Positions 14,911 through 17,368 of a stretch of DNA of 53,865 bases are shown piece after piece. Position 1 is the stretch's first letter. Each line of letters opens with the position of its first letter. Location of the stretch: assembly GCA_003161635.1 (NCBI GenBank), contig PMOA01000041.1, positions 18,912 through 72,776 on the forward strand. The letters run 5' to 3'. The translations under genes were made by a program, and so were the position numbers. Source of the DNA: Limisphaerales bacterium. GTDB lineage: Bacteria; Verrucomicrobiota; Verrucomicrobiia; Limisphaerales; UBA11358. Below the pieces are notes generated by a model that worked only from the letters and a program-made list of their open reading frames with translations, was not told the origin of the DNA and did no database searches.

Positions 14911-15930
14911 TTATTCGCGTCCCGCCGCGGTGATGAACGGCTTCAATTCCTTCATCAGCTTGGCGAACATGTCGAACGACATCTGTTGCGCGCCGTCGCT
15001 CCAGGCTTCCGCCGGGTTGGGATGCACTTCAATCAACAACGCGTCCGCGCCCATGGCCACCGCGCCTTTGCACATCGCCGCCACCAGGTCCGCGCGCCCG
15101 GCGCCCTGGCTCGGGTCAATCACGATCGGGCAGTGCGATTCGCGCTTGATGATGGGAATGGTCGAGAGGTCCAGCGTGTTGCGCGTGTAGGTCTCGAACG
15201 TGCGGATGCCGCGTTCGCAGAACAGGAGATTCGGATTTTCGTTGGCGAGAACGTATTCGCCCGCGAGCAGCCACTCCTCGATTTTCATCGAAAGGCCGCG
15301 CTTGAGCAGGACGGGTTTGCCGGTCTTTGCGGCAGCAATCAGAAGTTGGAAGTTCTGCGAATTGCGCGCGCCGATCTGGATGATGTCCGTGTATTCGGCC
15401 ACCATTTCGGCGTGGTTTTCGGAGAGCAGTTCGGTGATGACGGCCAGCCCGGTGACGCGTCGCGCCTTGTCGAGCAGCTTCAAGCCCTTCTCGCCCAGTC
15501 CCTGGAATTCGTAGGGTGACGTGCGCGGCTTGAACGCCCCACCGCGCAGGAAGGTCGCGCCGGCGGCCTTCACCGCCTCGGCGGTCTGGAGCAGTTGTTT
15601 CTCGCTTTCGACCGAGCACGGCCCGGCCATGACGTGGAATTGTTTGCCGCCGATGACGTGTTCGCGGACGCGGATGGTGGAGTTGGCCGGATGCGCCTCG
15701 CGGCTGATGAGCTTGTAGCGCTTCTGGATGGGCGTGACGCTTTCGACCGCGCGCGGGAATTGTGTGACCAGCGTTTCGAGGTTGGCGTGGGTGAGTTCGT
15801 CGCCGATGGCGCCGATGACGGTGCGCGCCACGCCGCGCATGACGTGGGGGATGTAGCCGAGTTTGCGGATTTCCTTGAGGACGGCCTGCTCCTCCTTCCT
15901 CGAAATCCGGGGTTTAAGCACGATGATCAT
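14911..15930 (-). CDS. aroF: 3-deoxy-7-phosphoheptulonate (DAHP) synthase
   Basis: N-terminal ferredoxin-like domain; FHVMAGPCSVESEKQLLQTAEAVK, LRGGAFKPRTSPYEFQGLGEKGL, VIDPSQGAGRADLV. Confidence 0.96.
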   Translation of the reverse strand: MIIVLKPRISRKEEQAVLKEIRKLGYIPHVMRGVARTVIGAIGDELTHANLETLVTQFPRAVESVTPIQKRYKLISREAHPANSTIRVREHVIGGKQFHVMAGPCSVESEKQLLQTAEAVKAAGATFLRGGAFKPRTSPYEFQGLGEKGLKLLDKARRVTGLAVITELLSENHAEMVAEYTDIIQIGARNSQNFQLLIAAAKTGKPVLLKRGLSMKIEEWLLAGEYVLANENPNLLFCERGIRTFETYTRNTLDLSTIPIIKRESHCPIVIDPSQGAGRADLVAAMCKGAVAMGADALLIEVHPNPAEAWSDGAQQMSFDMFAKLMKELKPFITAAGRE

Positions 15931-15960: not shown

Positions 15961-15999
15961 AAAACAAAAACGCCGCAGGCGTCCTGGCGACCTGCGGCG
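15961..15999 (-). terminator. Intrinsic terminator (attenuator) between leader peptide and aroF
   Basis: Minus strand cgccgcagg-tcgccaggacg-cctgcggcg followed by tttttgtttt. Confidence 0.85.
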
Positions 16000-16017
16000 A
16001 TTGGTTTGGTTAAAGTT

Positions 16018-16092
16018 CTATCGCAGCCGCAAGTGCGCGCCTACCGGCCAAAACCAATAAAAGAAATACTGGCTGCTGGCTGCGTTGTTCAC
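16018..16092 (-). CDS. aroF leader peptide (24 aa from GTG; in-frame GTG also at 16107)
   Basis: GTG AAC AAC GCA GCC AGC AGC CAG TAT TTC TTT TAT TGG TTT TGG CCG GTA GGC GCG CAC TTG CGG CTG CGA TAG = MNNAASSQYFFYWFWPVGAHLRLR*; seven consecutive aromatic codons. Confidence 0.85.
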   Translation of the reverse strand: MNNAASSQYFFYWFWPVGAHLRLR

Positions 16093-16181
16093 TTGTGTAC
16101 TATTCACGAGGCAAAGGTAGCAGAACCGTACCCGCCGTCAAGCTTGGCGGCGGCGCCTGCGGGCGGGGGATGGTTTACCTT

Positions 16182-16258: not shown

Positions 16259-17368
16259 TCAGACGTTGAATTTGAATAGTAATACGTCGCCGTCCTTGAC
16301 GACGTAATCGCGGCCTTCGATGCGATAGTGGCCGGTTTCACGGGCGTGGCCAACCGAGCCGCACTTCACCAGATCATCCCAGTTCACCGTCTCCGCCTTG
16401 ATGAACCCGCGTTCGAAGTCGGTGTGAATGGTGCCGGCGGCCTTCACGGCCGTGTCCCCGGCGTGAATCGTCCACGCGCGGACCTCCTTTTCGTTGAAGG
16501 TGAAAAACGTCCGCAAGCCGAGCACGTGATACGCAGCCCGAATGAGCTGGCCGGCGCCGGATTCGGCAACGCCGAGTTCCTTCAAAAATTCCTTCGCTTC
16601 GTCCGGCGACAAATCAACGAGGTCGCTTTCAATCTGCGCGCTGACGACGACGGCTTCGCACGCGAGATGTGTCTTCACGTAGTCGCGCACTTTTTGGACG
16701 AATGGATTGTCGTCCGCGGTGGCGAGGTCGGATTCCTTGACGTTGCAGACGAAGACGGTTGGTTTGTCGGTCAGGAGGAAGAAAGTCCGCACGATTGACT
16801 TTTCCTCCGGCGCCAGCGGGAGCGCGAGCATGTTGGCCGGTTTGCCCGTGTCCAGATGGGCGCCAATCTTTTCCAGCAGGTGCTCCTCCAGCTGCGCGTG
16901 TTTGTCCCCGCGTTTCACGTCCTTGGCAATTTTTTCCCGCCGCTTTTTGACCGCCTCGATGTCGGCCAGCACCAGTTCGGTGGTGACGATTTCGATGTCG
17001 CGCACGGGATCCACACTGCCCGTGACGTGGACGATGTCGGGATCCTCGAAGCAGCGGACGACATGCAGGATGGCGTCCACCTCGCGGATGTGGCTCAAAA
17101 ATTTGTTGCCCAGGCCTTCGCCGTGCGATGAGCCTTTCACCAAGCCGGCGATGTCCACGAATTCAATCGTCGTGGGGATGAGGGTCTGCGTTTTCGCGAT
17201 TTTGGCAAGCGGTTCGAGCCTCGGTTCCGGCACGGTGACCACGCCGAGGTTCGGTTCGATGGTGCAGAAGGGATAATTCTCCGCCGGCGCCTTGTGCGAA
17301 CGGGTGACGGCGTTGAAAAACGTGGATTTCCCGACGTTGGGCAGACCGACGATTCCAGCTTTTAACAT
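16259..17368 (-). CDS. ychF: YchF/Obg-like GTPase/ATPase
   Basis: MLKAGIVGLPNVGKSTFFNAVTRS, FVDIAGLVKGSSHGEGLGNKFLSHIREVDAILHVVRCF; TGS domain at C-terminus. Confidence 0.97.
   Translation of the reverse strand: MLKAGIVGLPNVGKSTFFNAVTRSHKAPAENYPFCTIEPNLGVVTVPEPRLEPLAKIAKTQTLIPTTIEFVDIAGLVKGSSHGEGLGNKFLSHIREVDAILHVVRCFEDPDIVHVTGSVDPVRDIEIVTTELVLADIEAVKKRREKIAKDVKRGDKHAQLEEHLLEKIGAHLDTGKPANMLALPLAPEEKSIVRTFFLLTDKPTVFVCNVKESDLATADDNPFVQKVRDYVKTHLACEAVVVSAQIESDLVDLSPDEAKEFLKELGVAESGAGQLIRAAYHVLGLRTFFTFNEKEVRAWTIHAGDTAVKAAGTIHTDFERGFIKAETVNWDDLVKCGSVGHARETGHYRIEGRDYVVKDGDVLLFKFNV

Follow-up and report, generated by a model that had tools for sequence, protein, structure and literature searches.

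The interval between ychF and aroF in the window, by which we mean the whole 53,865-nucleotide stretch of Limisphaerales DNA analysed here, raises the question of whether entry into the aromatic pathway is switched by a short upstream ORF, and by which amino acids. The aroF gene (14911..15930, minus strand, as are all features of the locus described below) has an ATG start and encodes a 339-residue type I-beta DAHP synthase (3-deoxy-7-phosphoheptulonate synthase). Its product scores above the cut-off of NCBIfam PRK08673/TIGR01361 and matches Pfam DAHP_synth_1 and DAHP_snth_FXD, the ferredoxin-like regulatory domain being present. Upstream, ychF lies on the same strand and ends at 16259, and the putative regulator lies between that point and the aroF start at 15930. 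We are highly confident that aroF is under the control of a classical ribosome-mediated transcription attenuator, which very probably raises the aromatic pathway when any of Phe, Tyr and Trp runs short. We regard it as a well-supported member of the leader-peptide attenuators, with the sensing of three aromatic amino acids as its most notable trait.

The promoter consists of a -35 hexamer TTGACG (16136..16141) and, after a 16-nt spacer, a -10 hexamer TACCTT (16114..16119). This pair, noticed in the first-pass annotation, is present and kept among homologues: TTGAC recurs at the same spacing in nearly all homologous leaders, and the -10 position reads TAnnnT in most of them. A strict sigma-70 consensus scan did not flag the promoter, TACCTT being weak by consensus; the promoter is recognised because it is conserved, not by its consensus score. 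The leader ORF, VNSTQVNNAASSQYFFYWFWPVGAHLRLR (16018..16107), comprises 29 codons from a GTG start plus a TAG stop and is conserved across the order. It carries in frame the claimed run of sensor codons TAT TTC TTT TAT TGG TTT TGG (Y F F Y W F W; 16048..16068). The ORF had been annotated earlier as a 24-residue version from the second GTG at 16092; the ORF itself holds, while its start is probably the earlier in-frame GTG at 16107, 6 nt past the -10 hexamer, giving 29 aa. In 81 of 96 homologous leaders the distance from the -10 hexamer to the start codon is 6-9 nt, a promoter spacing that predicts a leaderless or almost leaderless transcript; the start is GTG in 54 leaders and ATG in 40. The leader stop ends at 16018, and the aroF ATG follows 87 nt further downstream. 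In dinucleotide shuffles of the region, a short ORF on the same strand reached the aromatic score of the window (7 of 12 codons) once in 2000, and the leader RNA folds 3.7 sd below shuffles. GCAGC near the start of the leader and GGCTGCG at its end (within 16018-16107) have counterparts, GCAGC and GGCTGC, near the ends of many leaders; the pair could form an outer protector helix of the 1:2 type, and in the window a helix CGCAGCC/GGCUGCG is able to form.

Downstream of the ORF, the GC hairpin CGCCGCAGG...CCTGCGGCG followed by TTTTTGTTTT is found before aroF as described in the first-pass annotation. Its 5' arm is segment 3 (CGCCGCAGGT, 15990..15999), its 3' arm is segment 4 (GCCTGCGGCG, 15971..15980), and the T run TTTTTGTTTT occupies 15961..15970. 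Segment 3 is common to the terminator and to an antiterminator, whose 5' arm, segment 2 (ACTTGCGGC, 16026..16034), encodes H-L-R-L within the leader, and which was assessed by an own-versus-foreign test. In the window the duplex of segments 2 and 3 measures 9 bp and -16.6 kcal/mol. The locus accordingly offers a predicted aromatic-rich leader ORF, an intrinsic terminator and a mutually exclusive antiterminator that appears to be placed for stall-dependent release.

Of 293 genomes sampled within the order (Pedosphaerales-like Verrucomicrobiota), an AroF protein search found an orthologue in 153, and orthologues also occur in named relatives such as Pedosphaera sp., which the NCBI taxonomy places in Verrucomicrobiota, Pedosphaerales. 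We read 143 distinct aroF upstream regions, of which 141 were usable for the count of aromatic scores. A short ORF with a score of at least 5 of 12 codons is found in 69% of these 141 regions, against 3.7% of dinucleotide shuffles and 2.8% of antisense sequences. So that the choice of leaders did not depend on aromatic content, a second set was delimited solely by the position of the promoter, which yielded 100 leaders from the 143 regions. These have a median of 28 codons, 98 of them measuring 15-40 aa, and a quarter of their residues (25%) are aromatic (F 13.6%, Y 6.5%, W 4.9%). The proposal that a single leader senses all three amino acids has its counterpart across the order, where codons for Phe, Tyr and Trp in one leader are the rule: all three are present in 83 of the 100 promoter-defined leaders and in 93 of 97 picked by aromatic score. 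Aromatic codons peak 10-16 codons before the stop. A further, upstream peak is seen 20-22 codons before the stop, often as S-F-R-F or Y-F in a AGCAGCTTTCGATTT-like context. Within the leader frame, substitutions show a modest bias, with a pN/pS of 0.59 compared with 1.14 and 0.71 for the two alternative frames (the pairs are not independent of one another); a modest bias would be expected where the codons are under the additional constraint of RNA pairing. In about one third of the aroF upstream regions no strict leader is seen, and in a few its loss is clear. Among the latter, L015 and L038 lack the leader, and L015 carries its promoter (TTGACGG..GTTAGC) directly before aroF; the leader is likewise lost in L165, L035 and L160, with promoter and hairpin kept in L165 and L160 and no leader ORF.

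An intrinsic terminator, with a strong GC stem and a T run, follows the ORF in 112 of the 143 genomes' regions under a strict filter, and its arms vary with compensation among homologues. To evaluate the antiterminator, each leader end was matched in turn with all terminator arms, and 2000 permutations were run. Duplexes of segment 2 with its own segment 3 average -17.7 kcal/mol, against -15.6 kcal/mol with foreign segments 3, and none of the 2000 permutations reaches the mean of the native pairs. In one family (f7) the terminator core alternates between CCGCAGG/CCTGCGG and CCGCCGG/CCGGCGG, and segment 2 follows, reading CCTGC or CCGGC. The f7 genomes with a CCGCCGG segment 3 form their own duplex at -19 to -28 kcal/mol, against -13 to -15 kcal/mol with the consensus segment 3. 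In an alignment of 11 sequences, narrower than the MAFFT alignment of 57 leaders, compensated pairs were counted as GC:7/UA:4 at one antiterminator pair and CG:7/AU:4 at the corresponding terminator pair, a swap compensated across all three strands that represents one or a few events, because the changed sequences all come from family f7. Within the same 11-sequence alignment 96.4% of cells are paired in both helices, with slid controls at 23-65%. The competing pairing between TGCGGC at the end of the leader ORF and GCCGCA in the terminator 5' arm, proposed for the window alone, is conserved and covarying. A second proposed pairing, ATTGGTTTTGG with ACCAAACCAAT, fared differently: it exists in the window and is not conserved, the own partners (-8.69 kcal/mol) doing no better than foreign ones (-8.75 kcal/mol), with 1198 of 2000 permutations as good. 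In L004/L031 a different terminator hairpin (GCCCCGAA/TTCGGGGC) is present, and the old CCGCAGG arm persists upstream of the new one.

The aromatic codons themselves lie in a hairpin, P1 (AGCCAGTA tttcttt TATTGGTT; approximately 16048..16074), which holds them in its loop and arms. Examples from other leaders are AGCGGU-UACUUU-ACCGCU, CGAAC-UUUUAUUU-GUUCG and GCUGGUA-UUGGUU-UACCAGC. In a plain MAFFT alignment of 57 leaders P1 is poorly registered because leader lengths vary, and a synonymous-codon null was therefore used, in which the same peptides were kept and synonymous codons were shuffled in 200 codings. Over 97 leaders the P1 part has a summed MFE of -1581 kcal/mol; the recodings give -1256 +/- 34 kcal/mol, and the lowest of the 200 reaches -1359. 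The inner stem shows all six pair types at every position, although these stems were pre-chosen for pairing and the synonymous-codon null is the actual test. The median gap between the end of P1 and segment 2 is 4 nt, and the two overlap in only 14 of 74 leaders. Comparison of sequences across the order establishes the conserved ORF, its codon bias, the terminator, the competing antiterminator and P1 as features of the family. The orthologue comparison called for in the first-pass annotation finds the aromatic ORF, the terminator and the antiterminator of the TGCGGC:GCCGCA type kept and covarying, and this order-wide conservation and covariation supports its core reading of a ribosome-stalling attenuator before aroF.

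The response of the switch to translation was simulated by masking a ribosome footprint codon by codon and folding the RNA up to segment 3. The mean simulated probability that segment 3 is captured is 0.74 with the ribosome on aromatic codons, against 0.42 with the ribosome at the stop codon; the expected shift exceeds 0.3 in 44 of 89 simulated leaders, and the reverse shift does so in one. The peak of aromatic codons 10-16 codons before the stop coincides with the place where segment 3 capture rises. In the simulated window, a stall on several of the Tyr, Phe and Trp codons gives the 9-bp antiterminator ACUUGCGGC:GCCGCAGGU, and a ribosome at the stop codon gives none; the last two aromatic codons, F19 and W20, lie near the switch point, and there another fold wins. 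Folded without a ribosome, the RNA favours the antiterminator (mean 0.57, window 0.94), and the termination of untranslated RNA known from E. coli trp would therefore probably not occur here, unless segment 2 is sequestered by some other element.

From these features we infer the course of events: where transcription starts, how the ribosome stalls, how termination proceeds in vivo, which amino acids elicit a response and what P1 does. Transcription would begin on the leader GTG or no more than a few bases from it, and the peptide would be translated from the 5' end of the RNA. With Phe-, Tyr- and Trp-tRNA all charged, the ribosome would reach the stop codon and mask segment 2, leaving segments 3 and 4 to form the terminator and keeping aroF off. 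A shortage of any one of the three would stall the ribosome within the aromatic run, 10-16 codons short of the stop codon, so that segment 2 stays free to pair with segment 3 and aroF is transcribed. P1 would fold ahead of the arriving ribosome and is probably a hairpin at which RNA polymerase pauses.

Several other readings of the locus can be weighed against this one. A less ambitious reading, which we consider possible though clearly the weaker, is that the attenuator is real and senses only one or two aromatics, for example Phe or only the residue whose codon lies closest to the switch point, and that the remaining aromatic codons are simply tolerated beside it. The AroR leader of Corynebacterium glutamicum, as described in PMC11802643, holds Phe-Tyr-Phe and yet responds to limitation of Phe and not of Tyr, and Phe is also the commonest residue of the sensor window in the present family (24%, against 13% for Tyr and 10.5% for Trp). 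Against a narrower specificity, Tyr and Trp are independently enriched, the three residues occur together in 83 of 100 leaders chosen without the aromatic criterion, and 74 of 97 leaders place all three within a 10-codon sensor window.

Leader ORFs upstream of genes can act in several ways, and the short ORF might work through translational coupling, mRNA stability or Rho access instead of an intrinsic terminator switch; the retention of the ORF beside an altered hairpin in a few genomes (L004/L031) would fit such a role. We nevertheless find this very improbable, as a strong GC stem and T run follow the ORF in most genomes (the 112 of 143 that pass the strict filter), there is specific complementarity between the terminator 5' arm and the end of the leader ORF, and the leader, 87 nt away, does not overlap the start of aroF. 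With ychF upstream on the same strand and ending at 16259, the hairpin might also be an ordinary ychF terminator preceded by an aromatic ORF that arose by chance. The 1-in-2000 frequency of such an aromatic score in shuffles speaks against it, and so does the fact that the whole set of promoter, aromatic ORF, antiterminator and terminator is retained ahead of aroF while the upstream DNA differs between genomes; this conservation rules the chance arrangement out for practical purposes. The ribosome-mediated attenuator that would respond to all three aromatics is retained as the preferred reading.

Leader peptides rich in the amino acid they regulate are classically represented by trpL and pheL of E. 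coli, where antiterminator and terminator are mutually exclusive and share segment 3; ilvL of the E. coli ilvGMEDA operon is a multivalent branched-chain leader. The window is like ilvL in using one leader for several amino acids of one pathway, branched-chain in ilvL and aromatic here. With trpL and pheL it has in common the amino-acid-rich leader and the shared segment 3 (also PMC11802643), whereas those two serve one amino acid each and have a Shine-Dalgarno site and a 1:2 protector, and the window has a predicted leaderless start, with P1 in its family usually stopping a few nt short of segment 2. In rnTrpL/peTrpL of Sinorhizobium meliloti the attenuator RNA has the start codon of the leader peptide at its very 5' end (PMC7298713); that system is alphaproteobacterial, responds to Trp only, starts with ATG and has a known 5' end, whereas leaderlessness in the window is deduced from promoter spacing. 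The closest described counterpart by target gene is the aroR leader of aroF in C. glutamicum, with Phe-Tyr-Phe and a reported response to Phe and not Tyr (Neshat et al. 2014, as described in PMC11802643; also PMC4046766). According to these descriptions, a DAHP synthase gene is there likewise preceded by an aromatic leader peptide that acts in ribosome-mediated attenuation; compared by description, the actinobacterial leader contains Phe-Tyr-Phe only, while the present family combines Phe, Tyr and Trp codons in one leader with an aromatic-loop P1. The uORFC-13-1 motif before aroF in Acholeplasma, a prediction with 24 representatives and a proposed Phe sensor, also combines an upstream ORF with an intrinsic terminator (PMC8632094). 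It is confined to Acholeplasma and environmental DNA, whereas the window has no match to any Rfam leader family: at gathering and relaxed thresholds (E up to 5), the sole Rfam hits were a tRNA at another place in the window and, on the opposite strand, an asX2 match due to chance. In the open literature we found no attenuation described for Verrucomicrobia and no aromatic leaders described in Geobacter; no earlier description of a DAHP synthase attenuator was found for Verrucomicrobiota, the mechanism class itself being classical.

Type I-alpha DAHP synthase genes of the same genus, taken as a negative control, have no such leader in nearly all of 30 loci; two of the 30 upstream regions contain a short ORF with an aromatic score of 5-6. 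No similar leaders were seen in the trpE and pheA upstream regions of the same genome, and type II DAHP synthase is absent in the genus. The more distant verrucomicrobial loci that we read (L047, L048, L050, L051, L054-L056, L058, L059) contain no aromatic leaders. Aromatic leaders with P1-like hairpins do precede type I-beta aroF in Geobacterales/Desulfuromonadales, in Bryobacteraceae and other Acidobacteria, and in Rokubacteria, two examples being MNSNRFYVAFSFYFWFGFYFRPSARVEV and MIRWFGFGYFYFAEVRPPALT. An aromatic short ORF followed by a hairpin stands before aroF at Geobacterales-like loci L061-L068, L074, L094, L097 and L109, at acidobacterial loci L070, L073, L083, L089, L100 and L103, and at rokubacterial loci L081 and L106. 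We took forward 25 leaders from about 50 non-verrucomicrobial loci; all three aromatics are present in 20 of these 25, and the P1 test is weaker in them (summed MFE -246, against -206 +/- 11).

These occurrences raise the question of shared origin or repeated invention. Tentatively, they might belong to a distinct and old type of DAHP synthase attenuator, in which a leaderless Phe/Tyr/Trp sensor peptide and a sensor-loop hairpin have stayed linked to type I-beta aroF in Verrucomicrobiota (Pedosphaerales), Desulfuromonadales/Geobacterales, Acidobacteriota and Rokubacteria, acting as an OR gate on three aromatic tRNAs with antitermination as the default if the leader is untranslated; we hold this broader proposal to be doubtful. 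For a phylum dominated by uncultured bacteria, the locus adds a well-defined RNA regulator of entry into the shikimate pathway, built on a small gene that ordinary annotation overlooks. The roughly 100 natural leader variants with covarying switch strands offer a natural test case for three-amino-acid attenuation and for leader translation without a Shine-Dalgarno site.

The distribution of aroF within the genus (g1) is itself uneven. Most congeners have no type I-beta AroF and carry a type I-alpha DAHP synthase (TIGR00034) and a DHQ synthase, and both DAHP synthases, type I-alpha and type I-beta, are present in G000, G023 and G032. The genome of the window contains a further ORF of 433 aa (L111:1153-2454, minus strand; G000:C112), in which the C-terminal 135 residues of AroF are fused in frame to another N-terminal part. 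The AroF portion is 87% identical to the AroF of the window, and the N-terminal part has no Pfam match and resembles a tyrosine recombinase by eye. In another congener (G031:C107:2365-4436) aroF lies in several separate pieces of 94-96% identity, one of them repeated, which may reflect gene decay, insertion or an assembly fault.
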